In this document: in pieces, positions 13,540 through 21,490 of the stretch
Position numbering within the stretch: the stretch's first letter is position 1
Layout of the letters: every line of letters begins with the position of its first letter
Virus record (IMG/VR): IMGVR_UViG_3300044630_001302
Span: 1 to 35,960 of that record
Source: a virus
DNA length: 35,960 nt
Direction: 5' to 3' (one strand)
Notes under the pieces: model-generated
Databases searched by the model: none
The model's input: the letters and a program-made list of their open reading frames with translations, nothing else
Told to the model about the DNA's origin: nothing
Program-made: the position numbers and the translations under genes

Positions 13540-14745
13540 TTAAGCGTGGAATACTGGTAAGATACCTAAAGACAATGCAGATGAAGCTTTACGTTGCCAT
13601 GTACCACGTGCGCTAGCAATAGTAGTTGTAGCTGTAAGAGCTTTAGAAACACCGCCTTCAACAACGCCCATGTAATTTGCATTAGATGGGAATTCAGTTA
13701 CAGCACCATTCCAGTTATAGCCTGCAGGAGCCAATACATAGCCCCAACGTGACCAGATAGAAGTAGTACCGCCACCTTTGTATTTGTTAGCATCACGGAA
13801 GACTTCAGTTGAGTCAGGAACCATCAACGATTCCATAGCGATTGCACCAGGCAATACGATGAAAGAAGTTTTAGTTGAAGCAGCATTCAAATCAACACCA
13901 GCACCAGAATTAAGCATAGTTAATTCAGCAGATGATAATGATTGGGCAGCACGTGTAGTGATTAAACGGAATTTACCATTAAAGATAGTGTTAAAAGTAA
14001 CATTACCATCAACGATAGTTGTTTCATCAACAAAGTTAGCTGAACGGAAAGAAGCCATAGTTTCAGGAGATACAACTAAGTATGCCCAATCTGGTTCATA
14101 GTCTTTGAATGCCATACCGAAAGCATTCAAGAAACCTTCTGCTCTGGCAGCACCTTGTACAGCTGCAGTTGCAGCAATAACTGGTTTAGAACCACCTAAA
14201 TCAACATAGAAACCATAACGTGAGCTAGTTGGGTCATTGTCAAATGTTTGGCCACCTAAACCTGTCGAGCCTGAGCCTGTTGCGGTACCGTTAAGTACTT
14301 CAGAGATAGCTACACCTTTCAATACAGAAAGAATAGCATCATGTTCGTCTTGCGCACGAGTTTCACCGAAATCACGACCGATCTTAGCAAGACCGTCCAT
14401 TTGGGTTACTACTTGTGTCATATTAACTTTTTCAGCACCATGAGTACGAACAGTTTTAATGTAGGTACTGAAGTCTGATTGGAAGTTAGTTTTAGCACCA
14501 TCAGTAGCATCTGTTAAAGACGCAACGTTAACCGTAGGGTTCAAAGGTTTCAACCAACGCATTTGACCAATAAAGGTTTCGGTTGTAGTGTCAATTTGCG
14601 GATTACTTGAAGTAATGCCTGTGCTTGATAATTTCTTTGCGTTAGTATAAGCTTCGTCGCTATATGCGCCTAATGCTTCTTGTAATACATAATTGTTAGT
14701 ACCACCGGCTTGGCCGGAAGTATAACTTGTGCTTGTTGCAGCCAT
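13540..14745 (-). CDS. Major capsid protein, HK97 fold expected
   Basis: A 401-residue protein with an alanine/serine-rich N-terminus (MAATSTSYTSGQAGGTNNYV), a spine-like stretch around residues 100-150 (KVNMTQVVTQMDGLAKIGRD), a central domain with DWAYLVVSPETMASFR, and a C-terminal segment WSRWGYVLAPAGYNWNG, the pattern of the 'major capsid protein 13-like' family. It directly follows the scaffold-like gene and precedes the adaptor. The ribosome-binding site is AAGGAATAAC. No separate protease gene is seen nearby and no obvious N-terminal delta domain is present, so scaffold removal may not involve a dedicated protease in this window. Confidence 0.85.
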   Translation of the reverse strand: MAATSTSYTSGQAGGTNNYVLQEALGAYSDEAYTNAKKLSSTGITSSNPQIDTTTETFIGQMRWLKPLNPTVNVASLTDATDGAKTNFQSDFSTYIKTVRTHGAEKVNMTQVVTQMDGLAKIGRDFGETRAQDEHDAILSVLKGVAISEVLNGTATGSGSTGLGGQTFDNDPTSSRYGFYVDLGGSKPVIAATAAVQGAARAEGFLNAFGMAFKDYEPDWAYLVVSPETMASFRSANFVDETTIVDGNVTFNTIFNGKFRLITTRAAQSLSSAELTMLNSGAGVDLNAASTKTSFIVLPGAIAMESLMVPDSTEVFRDANKYKGGGTTSIWSRWGYVLAPAGYNWNGAVTEFPSNANYMGVVEGGVSKALTATTTIASARGTWQRKASSALSLGILPVFHA

Positions 14746-14764: not shown

Positions 14765-15409
14765 TTAGCGCCGAAGAGTTCCTTCAGCGGCACGTTTTAA
14801 TACTTCTTCTTGTGATAATTTAAACAAAGATTTGTTGGTATTATCAGAAGTAGCTGTACTATGGGCGCCTGACGTTCCACCACCTGATGAAGTTTTAGGT
14901 TTAAAAAGAAATGAATTATCTTCTAATTCAGAGAATTGTTTAATAAAGGTTCTTAAATCGGTTCCACTCTTGTGTGTCCAGACTCCTAATTCATTTTGAA
15001 CTAATTGGCTGGCTACATCCATATAAGCCATATCTAAGGCTTTATCACTTCTAAACACATAACTTGAGAGAGCGGATTTAATCTCGGCATCTCTGGCAAG
15101 TTCTAAGTTGCGTTTTACTAGCACTTCCACTTTTGCATTGGCTTCTGCTAACTGAAGTTCATAAGCTTCTTTATATTTACCATCATCTTGTAGTCTTTTT
15201 AATTCAGCTTCTTTTTCTTTTTGTTCATACTCAGCTGCTTTCTTAATCGCGGCATCTCTTTCAGCGTAAGCTTTATCTAGATTTGATTTGATTGGTTGTA
15301 AAGCATCTTGGATTTTCTTTTCGATCGCATCCACAGGAGGAGTGGGAATAATAGTATCCGGAGTAGGAGCAGGGGTTTCGATATTTTCATCTGTGGTTTC
15401 TGTAGACAT
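14765..15409 (-). CDS. Scaffold-like protein
   Basis: A 214-residue charged protein with a proline-rich N-terminus (about residues 10-27), a long coiled coil (about 28-105, rich in K, E and A), a shorter helical part, then a Gly/Ser/Thr linker (about 170-190) and a basic helical tail ending KRAAEGTLRR. This layout and the position immediately before the capsid gene fit a capsid scaffolding protein, which guides procapsid assembly through its C-terminal helix. AAAGGAAATAAC lies upstream of the ATG. It is the first gene after the 313-bp gene-free region, so its transcript may start there. Confidence 0.8.
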   Translation of the reverse strand: MSTETTDENIETPAPTPDTIIPTPPVDAIEKKIQDALQPIKSNLDKAYAERDAAIKKAAEYEQKEKEAELKRLQDDGKYKEAYELQLAEANAKVEVLVKRNLELARDAEIKSALSSYVFRSDKALDMAYMDVASQLVQNELGVWTHKSGTDLRTFIKQFSELEDNSFLFKPKTSSGGGTSGAHSTATSDNTNKSLFKLSQEEVLKRAAEGTLRR

Positions 15410-15487
15410 TTGTTATTTCCTTTGAGTACAACTCGTTATTAAGTACAGATACAATCTATACCTTGGAATATTTAAAAATTAAATTTA

Positions 15488-15506
15488 GGGTTAATTTAAC
15501 GGGGTT
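15488..15506 (-). repeat. 19-bp repeat with palindromic core, copy near the scaffold gene
   Basis: The minus strand reads AACCCCGTTAAATTAACCC. The core GTTAAATTAAC is a palindrome around its central A. The identical sequence occurs in the same orientation at 15633-15651. It is a candidate promoter or operator for the capsid genes; the function is inference. Confidence 0.6.
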
Positions 15507-15632
15507 TATTAATGTTATAAATAGAGTACCCTTTATACTTTACCCTTAGATACCTCTTAGGGTTAATGATTAGGGAGGGGATAAAGAGAGGGACTAACTA
15601 CTAATAACTATATATTAGGGGGGCGGGCGAAG

Positions 15633-15651
15633 GGGTTAATTTAACGGGGTT
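15633..15651 (-). repeat. 19-bp repeat with palindromic core, distal copy
   Basis: Identical in all 19 bases and in orientation to 15488-15506, 145 bp away, with different flanks on both sides. That argues for a conserved protein-binding or promoter element rather than a duplicated larger block. Confidence 0.6.
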
Positions 15652-15664
15652 AAGATAACGCCAA

Positions 15665-15700
15665 AGACCAGAGCTTCCAGTTTGGAGTCCAGAAGGGTCT
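15665..15700 (-). terminator. Hairpin downstream of the Tad2 homologue
   Basis: On the minus strand AGACCCTTC pairs with GAAG and GGTCT (stem of 9 bp with a 4-base bulge). Only a short T run follows, so this is a weak candidate terminator or a structured leader for the region downstream. Confidence 0.35.
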
Positions 15701-15722
15701 GATCCTTGACATTAAAATTTAC

Positions 15723-15977
15723 CTAATTAACCAATACCCAGTCATCTGATAGTAAATCGGTTTGTGAAGCTAACCACGGAACTCTTGCATCGAGGTGATT
15801 CGTTGGTGCTGTACCACTTGCAGGCGTTGTTGGGTAAGCCATAAAAATATATGGAAGCGTCATTTTACTATTTGCATCAGGTCTTTGGAGTTCAAGCCAC
15901 AAGCCTTTTCCATTCCAACCTGAACGTGCCACTTTATGGTCTGATTTAAGCATATCTAATGCATGACTAAAATTCAT
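15723..15977 (-). CDS. tad2: DUF2829 protein, Tad2-type anti-Thoeris homologue
   Basis: The 84-residue protein MNFSHALDMLKSDHKVARSG...WNGKGLWLEL...MTLPYIFM...PWLASQTDLLSDDWVLV matches the DUF2829 family from end to end. Characterised members (Tad2) bind the cyclic ADP-ribose-type signal of the Thoeris defence and so stop abortive infection; some members bind other defence nucleotides. I use the ATG at 15977, coupled to the previous stop as ATGA, because the nine codons from an earlier ATG (16004) are not family-like and overlap the upstream gene. Its place in the virion operon directly after the polymerase gene suggests late expression, or expression by that polymerase. Which signal it binds cannot be told from sequence. 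Confidence 0.8.
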   Translation of the reverse strand: MNFSHALDMLKSDHKVARSGWNGKGLWLELQRPDANSKMTLPYIFMAYPTTPASGTAPTNHLDARVPWLASQTDLLSDDWVLVN

Positions 15978-16120: not shown

Positions 16121-16516
16121 TCAGCCTATGCCGTAAAAACCCCAATCATCTTCAAATTTAGTTGGATCAGGGATGGGTGATAATATATCCTTCTTAGTAA
16201 GGATGTCTGATTTCTTTAATACCTTGCCACCGACAACTGATACACCTTCAACAGGTATTAAACCTTTGTCTATAGCTTCTTCTAAATATTTGTCATATAA
16301 TTCTTGAGGTAACCCTCTGTTTAACATCTCATCTAATGTTGTTTTAACAGGTGTAGCATCTAATGTTCTTGCATACAAGCTCCTAATACCATCCCGTGCT
16401 TCGAGCATATCTGCGGCATTAGCGAAGAACGCGTCGTGAATGGTTGAGGTAGCGACATTATTTTCTCTACCCCATAAATGGAAGTTCTTGACAAGCGTAG
16501 CATCGTTTGAGTGGTT
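16121..16516 (-). CDS. MuF-RNA polymerase fusion, exon 2 (motif C, C-terminus)
   Basis: This is the last 131 codons of the RNA polymerase. It begins NHSNDATLVK, matching T7 RNA polymerase HSQDGSHLRK, and continues to IHDAF, the counterpart of T7 IHDSF with the second catalytic aspartate (residue 1442 of the spliced protein, codon 16435-16433). The end DDWGFYGIG resembles the aromatic C-terminus of T7 polymerase (DFAFA). Read alone, the frame opens at a TTG at 16528 with no ribosome-binding site, so it is not a separate gene. The exon starts after the intron's final G at 16517. Splicing to 17249 gives ...AFAVNG-NHSNDA... in frame. Without this exon the polymerase lacks a catalytic residue. Confidence 0.9.
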   Translation of the reverse strand, partial: NHSNDATLVKNFHLWGRENNVATSTIHDAFFANAADMLEARDGIRSLYARTLDATPVKTTLDEMLNRGLPQELYDKYLEEAIDKGLIPVEGVSVVGGKVLKKSDILTKKDILSPIPDPTKFEDDWGFYGIG

Positions 16517-17248
16517 CGTGGTGTTCAAATTACTCGCTAGGTAATTCCGTCAATATATTTAGCTTGGCAAATTCACCTTGTATCTCTATAGCTAATTTAT
16601 CATAAGCAATTGCAGCTTCTAGTTCCGAATCAAATTGGCCAATATAATGGCGCACATTTTCATATCGTATTGAAGCTTTCCAAATACTTTTAACAGAGTC
16701 GTACCATACTCCTTTATATTTACTGGTACCGTTTATTTGTCGACCCTTATTATACTGATTTTCTAAAGCTGTAGCTAATCTTAAGTTTTCGATATGATTA
16801 TTAAGACGGTTTCCGTCACAGTGATCTATAAATAAATCATCAGGGACTTCCTTATTAGTGAGTAGATACCATATTACTCTGTGTATATAGTAATATTTCC
16901 CATCAACTCTCATTCGTCTATAACCATCCTCAGAAATATAACCGGATTCCATATCTTTTCTAACAGAACCTCTAGAAATACGATTATATAATTTACCATC
17001 TTTGTAGTAGAAAAGGGCCTTTAAGCGTTCTATCTTCATTTTTAATCTCTCTAAATATTTAACTACTGCATATTGCTATGCAGGCCAGACTATATCTTAC
17101 TTTCCATGTCTCTGCGCTTCGAGCACGCTTGTGCCCTACATAATAGTCGTTGCACTACCCTAATACTTGGCATTCCATGCCGGATAGCTCAGGATTGTCC
17201 CATAGGGAGATCCCCTGAATTCACAGAGTTTTATAACGGCCAATTCCA
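16517..17248 (-). ncRNA. Group I intron, td-like (IA2)
   Basis: The 732-bp insert has the elements of the phage T4 td intron in order. P1: the exon end UAACGGU pairs with GCCGUUA starting 8 bases into the intron, with the required U-G pair at the splice site. Next come GACAATCCTGAGCTA (17199-17185, P4/P5 region), CAACGACTAT (P7 5' strand, 17152-17143), a GGGCAC/GTGCTC stem (P8), and AAGATATAGTCT (17098-17087, P7 3' strand), where GACTAT pairs with ATAGTC. A CTGCATA/TATGCAG hairpin (17083-17066) follows, as in td. The last base is G. Predicted splicing keeps the frame. The endonuclease gene lies 3' of the core. Confidence 0.9.
16530..17039 (-). CDS. Intron-encoded HNH-AP2 homing endonuclease
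   Basis: The 169-residue protein has an N-terminal domain, an HNH core at about residues 50-90 (YYYIHRVIWYLL, then FIDHCDGNRLNNHIENLR with His73, Asn81 and Asn85), and a C-terminal AP2 DNA-binding domain at about 107-161 (SKYKGVWYD, W120, IGQFDSELEAAIAYD). This is a common free-standing or intron-borne homing endonuclease layout. It would cut intron-less polymerase genes near the insertion site so the intron spreads by repair. GAGAGATTAAAA precedes the ATG at 17039. The stop codon lies 13 bases before the 3' splice site, so translation through the gene could disturb intron folding and compete with splicing. Confidence 0.92.
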   Translation of the reverse strand: MKIERLKALFYYKDGKLYNRISRGSVRKDMESGYISEDGYRRMRVDGKYYYIHRVIWYLLTNKEVPDDLFIDHCDGNRLNNHIENLRLATALENQYNKGRQINGTSKYKGVWYDSVKSIWKASIRYENVRHYIGQFDSELEAAIAYDKLAIEIQGEFAKLNILTELPSE

Positions 17249-20200
17249 ACCGTTAACAGCGAATGCCGTTCTTGCTTTGGTTGCGTCTGCAATATCATTG
17301 ATCTTACCTTCTGCATTTACTGTTTGTTCCCACCAGGTGGCTTCTGTTTTCTGAGCTATTTGTAATACGTTATTAACCCAGTTACCATCTTTATCTTTGT
17401 ACGTTAAACGTTCCTCAAAAGATTGGGTAAAGTTTTGTTCAATAATCTTACCATCGAAATTAACCCAAGGGACATTAGTCCAAGACTTAGGTAATTTGTT
17501 TGCTGTAAATATTTCAAAGCCTTTGGATATTACTAATTTTTCGATCGGCTCAATTTTGTATACCTTAAATCCAGTTCTTCTATCATCGGGTGCTTTAACA
17601 CCATAAATCAAATCTGCTAAATTACCATCAGGCTTCCATCCATCAAATCTACGTAAAAATTTTTCGGAAACAGGCTCTCCAGCTTTAATACCAAGTATTT
17701 CACTAACTCTATCTGGTAATGTATAACCTTTACCTTTAACGCCTAATACGCCAGTTTTAATAATGCTCGTCCAATCCAGTTTAGATTGTGAGGGTTTAGC
17801 ATTCTTAAGAAAATCTTCAGCTAGTCTTCCAAAGAACTTTGTGAAGTCTTTCAGAATAGGAACTTGCTCACCAAGATGTTCAGACATTAATTTAGCTATG
17901 GCTTGGAAATCTGCTGGAGTAACAACTCGATCATATTGATGTGACATCTTTTCAACCAGATCTTTTGTCTTAGGATCTAAGAAGTATAATGCTTCCATTA
18001 TGTCATCACCTGGCTCTTGACCTTTATTAAAGATATCACGAACATTTGCTCTTAACTGTTTCAATTCTTCAGCTGTTTCAGGGTCGAACTTTTCGTACCT
18101 AGCAGCTCTAGCTGAGATTTCACTTAATACTGTATCACGGTCACTCGCCTTGACAACTAATGTATTACCTTGTTTTTCTAAAACCTTAGCGAGCTTTCCT
18201 TCTACGTTAAGAATCCCAGTTCTCTCACCAGCGCCATAGAACGTTACCATATTCTGAGCTTTAGCGGCTTTACGTAAGTCCTTCTCGTTTAAGCCTAACT
18301 TTTGATTAAGCACTTTAAACCGAGGGTCATTATATGTAGCGGCAGCGATCTCATCGTATAGCCTACGTTTTTGACTTGTTGGCACTACATTAGATAACTC
18401 TGCTAATTGTTTATTCTTAGTTGTCAATGCAATAATCTGAGCACCTGATGATGAAGCATCTTGTTCCAAAGCCAAGGCTGTCTTGTAATCTGCCATTGTG
18501 CCACCGGCTTTAAGATGATTATCTATCTTAGCTGCTTCCATAGCAAATCTCATAAATTTGCCAAGCTCTTCGCCTTCAACTAGTTGTACCATTTCAGACT
18601 CTAATATAGCACGAATGTCATTAGGTTTCCCACGTAACATTTTATTACCGAGATCAACTAAATCAGGCCATAATTTATCAGCAATCTTTTGTCTACCTGT
18701 AAACGATAACGAATTATATCTCCCTTCGAATGTATCATTTAAGCCACCCATAAAGGCACCTATTTGGTCTCGAAAGTTTCTATATCCTGATTCTCCAAGT
18801 ATTTTGGACTGTTCGGTATTGAGGAAGGGTCTAAAAGACTCGCCGCTCTGAGGGCTGATAAGACCACGATCGTAAATACGGGCACGATGGTCAACAAAAG
18901 CGTGATTACTAAAACTAGTGCCTTTTGATCTGAGCCAGGCCATCGATTTGAAGCGTTCATAAGCGTCTCCTCTAGAAGAGATATAATGTTTATACTCATT
19001 GAGTTCATTATACTTTTTAGCATCACCTCTGTCATCTTCGAAATATAAAAGCTTCTGAGTGAAGTCATAGAAATCATCATCTATTTTATATTTAGATTTA
19101 GAGGCCCAGTTTAACGCATCAGCTAAGTTCTTATCAACCAAGGCTTCAGGAAAGTCTCCAAAACTATTAGTAGAGGTGATAGGTATTCGAGTATCTTCTA
19201 AACCGAAGACACCGTTATCAATAAAATACGTTTTGTAACCCTCGCGGAATACTAGCTTATTCTTCTCCGTTGTAACACCGACACGTAGGCCGACATCCAC
19301 TTTCCTTGTGAGCTGCGCATACTCTTGTACACGAGGGTCAGTAACACGTATATTATATGATAAGGTGTCATAATAAGGGCCGAATAACTGATTGCTTAAA
19401 CGGCTTTTCATACGTCTTTTTTGAACACCAAATGTCTCAACTTCAAAAAACTTACTTACATTTTTTGCTTCAAGTAACTTCATCCCTGTATTATACCACT
19501 CTTTACGACTCCCGTTGAGATTCGCTAAGTTGTGTAAATCTCTTCCCAATGCAACAGCAAACTGATCTCTATCTGGCATATCTGCCATACTAAGTCTATT
19601 AGCGAATTTCAAATAAAATTGTTGTAAGCTGGATTCGCTGATACGCGGTTTACCATTAGGTAATCTTTTTAATTTAAGAGGAATCTTATAATCAAAAGTA
19701 TTACGAAGTTCTCTTGCAATCTTAGGCGCTGTTTGATCTTCCCATCTGTTCTTAGCTCTTATATTATCTAGAAAGTTATCATGGAGATCTTGTAGTTGTG
19801 TGGAGCCTAAAACAGGGTCAATATAGTTATCTTGTTTAAGTTTCTTTAATACATCAGTATCTCTTCTAATCTGTGTTTCAATAGAGTCAGATACGTTCAT
19901 TACATCAAATTTTATTTGACCTTGAACAACACCTTTAAAATTACCCCATTGTTCACCGTTCTTTCTGAAACGAGTAAAAATGATTCTTAAGTTATCCGAT
20001 ACAACAGCACGTTCGTTAGCACCCATCTTTTCATCTAAGCTACCGATGAACGTCTCAATATAATGTTTATCCTCCGGTTTCAAATCCGTACTTTCTCTCA
20101 CGAGTTTGAGGTTATTATTGAGCACTGATATATTAGGCTGGTAAAGACGGGTATCTTCATAACGCCCTGTTACAGGATTGAAAACTGTTTGTTCTTCTGT

Positions 20201-21490
20201 TGGCAATTTTGTCAAGACTCTATTCTTAGTAGCTTTCTTATTGTGTAATAAAGTCCCACGATAATTGGTTAAACTTAGAGTACCATCTAATTCACCAGCT
20301 TGTAATAAGTAGTAATCACGAAGTGTATTCGTGAGTTTATTGTCATTAAGGAAGTCTTCAGGCTTTGTAGCCGTTAATTGCATTGCATCAAGCTTAGCTT
20401 TAGCGTTAGCAAACTTCTGAGTGTCATTTGGAAGTGTATATGTCGAATCAGTCATCTTACGAAGCTCATTAATACCTATGGTATTACCTTCTGCATTAGT
20501 AAATCTATCTAATGTGACTTGTTGGCTATCGAACATCTGTACTTTTTTATAATCGCCTAAATGTCTTAATTTAACATCTTGTGGCTGACGTAATAACCAA
20601 TCATTATAAGACTCACGCATTGGAGTATTACCATCATAAAAGGCTTTCTGCTCTTTAGTTAAGTTTTCTAAGTTTCGTTTACGTATTTGGGCAACACCTT
20701 CCATCTTAGACATATCATCCCAAGATTTAAACACAGGGACTGTAGTAGATCTACAATGCCAATGTGCAGGCGGTAAGTGTTCTGTATCTGACATATCGTA
20801 TATATGTCCGTCTCTATGAGCGCACAATGACGATGTACGAGCATCCAATACAGCTACATATTGCCAACCTTGTAAAGCTTTTTCGTTGGCTTTATAAACA
20901 GCATGATCAGCTTGTGCTGATACCGATGTAATAGATGTGATGACTAATGCTTTTGATTGCATTCTAGTGATATCATGTATATGACCCTTGCGAACCATCA
21001 AAGCTATTTCATCAGGTGATTTACCATCTGCCATACCTTTTCTTATAAGTGCTTCTAACCGAATACGTTCATTCTTAGCTATACCACCCCACCCTTGCTC
21101 CATTGTTTGGTTAGCATGTAATGGATTTTGTAAAGCAATCTCTTCCGAGATGATGTTCTTTGGGCGCTCCGTACGCCAGATTTTACCCATAGCTGTTTCG
21201 ACATTTTGATAAGCATAAGAGATTTGATCAGCTGTTAACGCAAGTAAATCTTTCTTTACAGAATTATTAATACTTTTATACGTTGTTCTAAGTTCTTTAT
21301 CTACTGCTTCTCTTAATCTATCAAACCCTTGTGAAGATAATTCAGCATCCTTCACAAGCTTGTCTATTTTAACTACATGACCGTCAATAATTAAATCAAC
21401 CTTGCCTGAAACTCTTCTTTCATATAATCGAATCATTGCTGCGCGGTCAAGTACCTTATCATATATTTGTGTATTACTATTGACGGCCAT
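17249..21490 (-). CDS. MuF-RNA polymerase fusion, exon 1 (MuF domain, polymerase motifs A and B)
   Basis: These 1414 codons, joined to 16516-16124, give a 1545-residue protein. Residues about 150-250 are a MuF head-morphogenesis domain: LDARTSSLC (215-223), DG (227-228) and PPAHWHCRS ending near Cys246. The C-terminal two thirds is a single-subunit T7-family RNA polymerase: DHRARIY at 867-873 (T7 DWRGRVY), motif A with Asp1011 in LEQDASSSGAQ (T7 FDGSCSGIQ), and motif B with Arg1073, Lys1077, Tyr1085 and Gly1086 (T7 R627, K631, Y639, G640, same K-to-Y spacing). The frame ends five codons into the intron (TAA at 17233-17231). The portal and a glycine-zipper gene lie upstream. Residues 260-850 are not assigned. 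A virion-packaged, ejected polymerase is the likely role. Confidence 0.9.

Follow-up and report, generated by a model that had tools for sequence, protein, structure and literature searches.

Tandem 19-bp repeats before the scaffold and capsid genes of a long-tailed phage as probable duplex promoters of a phage-encoded RNA polymerase

The repeats and their gene-free gap

In the head-gene region of a long-tailed phage one short sequence occurs twice within a stretch devoid of genes, which raises the question of what these repeats do and, should they be promoters, which polymerase reads them and in which form. The window, i.e., the whole stretch of DNA analysed, is a 35,960-bp IMG/VR virus record, a fragment representing the structural half of the phage genome, and its gene content comprises terminase, portal, a MuF head protein fused to an RNA polymerase (MuF-RNAP), scaffold, capsid and tail genes as well as a tape-measure-like open reading frame (ORF) of 3450 aa, which alone takes up the left 10 kb on the minus strand and runs off the left end. 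Similarity to a named phage on the DNA level was found for one short match of 68 bp. The recognisable genes of the window were all identified on the minus strand, hence the repeats reside on the coding strand. An earlier reading of the letters alone (the sequence-only reading) had described two perfect 19-bp repeats of the same orientation, and AACCCCGTTAAATTAACCC indeed occurs in two exact copies, 145 bp apart from start to start, whereby the sequence as first written is that of the minus strand and the plus strand reads GGGTTAATTTAACGGGGTT at both positions. No third copy was found in the window with up to three mismatches allowed, and dinucleotide shuffles gave a mean of 0.00 matches. Both copies locate to a gap of 313 bp (15410-15722) bounded by a small conserved ORF on one side and by the scaffold gene, which the capsid gene follows, on the other; this gap is the largest gene-free stretch of the window, in line with the location that had been ascribed to the repeats. 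Neither a host sigma-70 promoter nor a terminator that could serve the operon instead was found in the gap. The features concerned are:

15488-15506, minus strand: gene-proximal copy of AACCCCGTTAAATTAACCC, exact match and member of the motif family
15633-15651, minus strand: gene-distal copy of AACCCCGTTAAATTAACCC, exact match, of the class with a C-run after the motif (tandem pairs are common in relatives)
15611-15633, minus strand: C-rich run CCTTCGCCCGCCCCCC just downstream of the distal copy, seen in the sequence
14765-15409, minus strand: head scaffolding protein gene, first gene of the unit presumably served by the repeats (phrog_206, E 2.5e-7)
13540-14745, minus strand: major capsid protein gene (phrog_247, E 1.2e-19)

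The motif family in related phages

The sequence-only reading had named the lack of copies elsewhere in the genome as evidence against promoters and, as the window is a fragment, this check was carried out with relatives that were collected via the capsid protein and the polymerase. The motif family was identified to be AnCCCGTTAnnTTAACCC, and the pattern searched, CCCGTTAnnTTAACC, was found in 24/24 related IMG/VR records with 4-8 copies per near-complete genome, while the backwards-pattern control gave 0 matches in the 24 records. Within a given record all copies share one strand, the exception being a one-mismatch match inside a gene of one record. The consensus over 46 sites is A-n-CCCGTTA-n-n-TTAACCC, with the variation confined almost wholly to the two central bases. 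When the whole IMG/VR viral collection was scanned with the pattern only, 112 of the 115 new loci analysed among the matches listed encode proteins of this phage family, and 137/137 sites in these loci lie on the coding strand; likewise, 79 loci around the gene of a second, free T7-type polymerase (RNAP2) hold 97 motif sites on the coding strand and none opposed to it. The motif was absent from the literature searched.

Placing the proteins of DSS3_VP1 onto eight relatives revealed that the motif recurs at the same five syntenic module borders, with some genomes lacking one or other of them:

P1: before scaffold-capsid-tail
P2: after phoH, upstream of the RNAP2 operon
P3: before the gp72-polA-exonuclease-helicase unit (DNA replication)
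P4: mid-region
P5: before terminase

One or two copies precede the scaffold gene in most relatives that cover the gap. The sites are nearly all intergenic and mostly 20-330 nt ahead of the next gene, and many relatives possess tandem pairs, mostly 83-156 bp apart with 110-115 as the commonest distance. From copy number, module borders and coding-strand orientation the repeats are strongly supported as promoters of a phage-encoded RNA polymerase, and this part of what the sequence-only reading had claimed stood. Pelagibacter phage Kolga encodes a homologue of RNAP2 together with a short MuF protein, and no repeated motif was found in it.

Two polymerases and two motifs

That the phage encodes a polymerase of its own, as stated earlier, was borne out by a 1419-aa ORF holding both Pfam domains Phage_Mu_F (PF04233, E 2.1e-12) and RNA_pol (PF00940, E 6.5e-5), each above the curated cut-off, and the T7 catalytic motifs EQDASSSG, KAQNMVTFYG and, in exon 2, HDAFF are visible by eye. 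The gene is composed as follows:

17249-21490, minus strand: exon 1 of MuF-RNAP, in which a single-subunit RNA polymerase (the presumed virion polymerase) is joined to the MuF head protein (PF04233, PF00940; phrog_241, phrog_414)
16517-17248, minus strand: group I intron with an HNH endonuclease gene (16530-17039; phrog_99 HNH) inside the polymerase gene, with inferred exact ends
16121-16516, minus strand: exon 2 of the MuF-polymerase with T7 motif C (STIHDAFFAN), a tblastn match of the DSS3_VP1 MuF-RNAP

Within exon 1 the match of the relatives ends at residue 1414. The intron gave a match to Rfam RF00028 at 17066-17272 with 56.3 bits as compared to a gathering score of 50, and beyond it no other known RNA element was found in the window. 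As the intron with its endonuclease gene interrupts the polymerase gene immediately before catalytic motif C, the enzyme should be active only once spliced. Among the relatives, interruptions occur at several places in the MuF-RNAP gene, and inserts in the RNAP2 gene are found in two of them. A role of MuF-RNAP as virion enzyme is presumed from its MuF domain; the AlphaFold model of a MuF-RNAP fragment reached a pLDDT of 42.9, and sequence and profile searches identified a match to N4 RNAP2 that was only borderline.

Every complete relative encodes two single-subunit polymerases, MuF-RNAP and RNAP2, the gene of the latter lying outside this 36-kb window. RNAP2 comprises about 740 aa with 33-35% identity to DSS3_VP1 gp080 and is T7-type by sequence, Pfam (PF00940, E 2.9e-67, complete relatives) and fold, whereby the best structural match of its model is 1cez, the T7 RNAP-promoter complex. 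In the motif clade its specificity loop carries about 13 extra residues at the tip as compared to VP1 and T7; in the model the strands 604-614 and 631-644 are linked by this longer tip, and an alignment of VP1 with T7 puts the extension into T7's promoter-reading region. In T7 RNAP, that loop region reads the promoter. The longer loop appears in step with the changed motif, which is a correlation and not a proof. With a directional, conserved sequence of about 20 bp present in several copies on one strand, and a T7-type polymerase with specificity loop encoded in the same genome (seen in the complete relatives, the window being a fragment without RNAP2), these phages show two features of a T7-type promoter system.

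Next to this motif, a separate motif E with the consensus GCGGAAAn6TATCTTATATGA was identified in 1-5 copies in 19/24 records, its backwards control giving 0. It mostly resides between P2 and RNAP2, and around RNAP2 genes 106 sites were counted on the coding strand and none opposed. No copy is present in the window, as expected of the structural half. An example is:

G016:C1:52997, 53886 and 54600 (L147): motif E sites upstream of RNAP2

Motif E is a candidate promoter of the MuF-fused polymerase, whereby it was from synteny that genes were counted as early. As the motif found in the window marks late and replication units and motif E marks the region in which RNAP2 is made, RNAP2 is favoured as the reader of the former. 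The two repeats are thus probably tandem promoters which RNAP2 would read as ordinary duplex sequence and which would drive the scaffold-capsid-tail operon. The sequence-only reading had argued from the phage having a polymerase of its own; the enzyme encoded in the window is the MuF fusion, and RNAP2 appears to be the better fit. Several points count against RNAP2: its gene lies outside the window; one motif copy is located upstream of RNAP2 itself and would be usable by MuF-RNAP too; TTAA within the motif is followed by CCC with no conserved G at the plausible start site, unlike in most T7-type promoters; and in DSS3_VP1 both polymerases and the motif have diverged, so that co-variation alone cannot separate the polymerases.

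In the strongest alternative, the MuF-fused virion polymerase would use the repeats as its promoters, equally reading them as linear duplex. This reading would accord with the presence of the MuF-RNAP gene in every relative, with the copy preceding the RNAP2 operon at P2, and with EBPR siphovirus 1, in which the motif occurs twice along with MuF-RNAP and RNAP2 was not found in the searched part of its partial record. It is nevertheless considered unlikely, as the early region, in which a virion polymerase would be expected to act, is marked by motif E, a separate motif of equal conservation, while the repeats' motif is mostly found at replication and late modules.

With RNAP2 as reader, the following cascade is proposed. 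Initially, the MuF-fused polymerase (or that of the host) would transcribe the early region from motif E, by which RNAP2 would be made; transcription by RNAP2 from the AnCCCGTTAnnTTAACCC promoters would follow, both upstream of the RNAP2 operon and at the replication, mid, terminase and head-tail modules. In its broadest form, which we put forward tentatively and at somewhat less than even chances, this scheme would hold for long-tailed phages of a widespread group: a T7-type polymerase, delivered into the host by the MuF head protein, would start early genes from motif E, and RNAP2 with its enlarged specificity loop would subsequently fire CCCGTTAnnTTAACCC promoters. The first of the two enzymes would then be a virion polymerase of the single-subunit type that is fused to a capsid protein and stands outside the N4 lineage. 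As far as the available passages of Iyer et al. 2017 (PMC5512222) go, N4-like virion RNAPs are confined to N4-like phages and almost always fused to a metallopeptidase, and these passages make no mention of a MuF-polymerase fusion. The MuF-fused polymerase would be a possible new route for carrying transcription into the host.

Closest to this arrangement are the Naomviridae DSS3_VP1 and DSS3_PM1 (L179, L180, L473, L474), which hold about 11-13 copies of the T7/SP6-looking promoter motif ATAGGKTRCGTTAAAGARGGGG in the replication and structural modules, not directly upstream of RNAP2 genes, and a separate motif GAGAAAACTAAGGCATCTATAATGA before the RNAP2 region, i.e., the same split into two motifs with sequences of their own. 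Shared with these phages are a short, nearly invariant, directional coding-strand repeat at replication and structural modules, an encoded T7-type polymerase, the bases CGTTA(AA) and a 5' RNA hairpin beginning at the presumed start; at the DSS3_VP1 sites the presumed first transcribed bases GAGGGGG fold into a 5' terminal hairpin, as in the sites of the relatives. They differ in the 3' half of the motif (TTAACCC here, AGARGGGG there), in the initiating G-run, which VP1 has and which is missing here, and in the specificity loop, which is about 13 residues longer at the tip here than in DSS3_VP1. Thermus phage P23-45 has virion and non-virion polymerases with two distinct promoter motifs (PMC10770324) and resembles the present phages as a long-tailed phage with a structural-protein-fused polymerase, a second non-virion polymerase and two motif classes, but its enzymes are of the two-barrel type with one fused to the tape measure protein, whereas here both are T7-type and one is fused to the MuF head protein. 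The motifs described would provide a concrete promoter code for a large and little-studied group of two-polymerase phages, of which the dU-DNA Naomviridae are distant relatives, and the natural series of motif and specificity loop is material on how T7-type polymerases shift promoter specificity. The motif read backwards as a VP1-like promoter (AGGGTTAAnnTTAACGGGG) was also considered and rejected; despite the resemblance, such a promoter would be directed against every gene, and its spacing differs by 2.

The RNA start and other readings of the core

A GGG able to pair with the terminal CCC of the motif follows shortly downstream at 52/157 representative sites as compared to 10/157 in a far interval, and this enrichment suggests that the RNA begins at the 3' end of the motif. 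The mean folding z-score downstream was only modestly lower than in the control (-0.67 vs -0.31), since some site classes are without the hairpin. The RNA start is probably near the AA of TTAACCC, with the motif then covering about -15 to +4, and for the proximal copy, motif geometry and the 5' hairpins at other sites predict that the RNA starts around 15491-15492, which is about 82 nt upstream of the ATG of the scaffold gene. C-runs of the CCTCCCCC type were identified after 30/157 representative sites and after 0/157 in a control interval further downstream, for the most part at single P2/P5 sites or, in tandem pairs, at the copy lying upstream. In EBPR siphovirus 1 the corresponding runs are G-rich instead.

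Many sites thus lie at the start of a short RNA hairpin, and the downstream sequence is AT-rich at some of them, which would also suit an RNA processing or leader signal or a replication origin, the more so as T7-type promoters can double as origins. Such a non-promoter element is very unlikely, given that transcription units account better for 4-8 copies which sit at five operon borders and mostly 20-330 nt ahead of a gene block, and that the gap offers no recognised sigma-70 promoter or terminator to serve the operon in its place. Highly improbable, too, is an operator bound by a dimeric phage regulator at the GTTAn3TAAC dyad: the core does have dyad symmetry, imperfect and with a centre that varies, but the CCC...CCC flanks are asymmetric and near-invariant, every site has one orientation, which a dimer site does not need, and the dyad is lost in a sister clade.

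The mechanism that had been proposed from the sequence alone, extrusion of the core GTTA-AAT-TAAC as a template-strand hairpin recognised by a virion polymerase as in N4, is most improbable and was rejected by folding, covariation and sister-clade comparison. A stem GTTA/TAAC with loop AAT can be drawn, and most sites have inverted arms around a 3-nt loop, the arms being near-invariant and two loop positions variable. Yet the stem has 4 bp, three of them A-T, whereas N4 promoters form, in single-stranded DNA, a stem of 5-7 bp closed by a 3-nt loop, and the DNA folding energy of the motif is about zero (-0.1 kcal/mol, other strand -0.5) and no better than that of shuffles. Among 61 distinct 18-mers, 22 one-sided stem changes were counted, of which none is compensatory and 12 are non-pairing. 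The loop centre is A, C, T or G in this set, whereas N4 vRNAP promoters depend on defined bases in loop and stem (a purine at -11 and G at both -10 and -8; PMC4496689). In the sister clade each genome keeps 2-4 copies of CCCG(T/C)TAAATTAATGA, in which the stem is broken; a 92-kb record has 4 of them and a further record 2, and they share a single strand, that coding for RNAP2. The weak fold, the lack of compensatory change, the variable loop and the broken stem of the sister clade lead to the view that the inverted repeat is a by-product of the sequence and not a recognised feature, and no such hairpin is found in the DSS3_VP1 promoters. Likeness to N4 extends to a structural protein carrying a single-subunit polymerase, a second phage polymerase and the drawable short inverted repeat; unlike in N4, the stem is weak and not conserved as a structure, the loop varies, and the sites precede mostly replication, terminase and head-tail modules, with one before the RNAP2 operon, rather than early genes.

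Inverted repeats of other kinds were observed beside the motif. A 16-nt inverted repeat (15657-15672 / 15877-15892, 88% complementary, arms 204 nt apart) joins the gap beside the distal motif copy to the interior of a small phrog_872-like gene. At P4 (G001:59367 and G002:35183, coordinates in coding orientation) the upstream bases TTAACGGGTT repeat the 5' half of the motif as its inverted complement, placing this copy within a larger inverted repeat that may represent a terminator or a regulatory fold.
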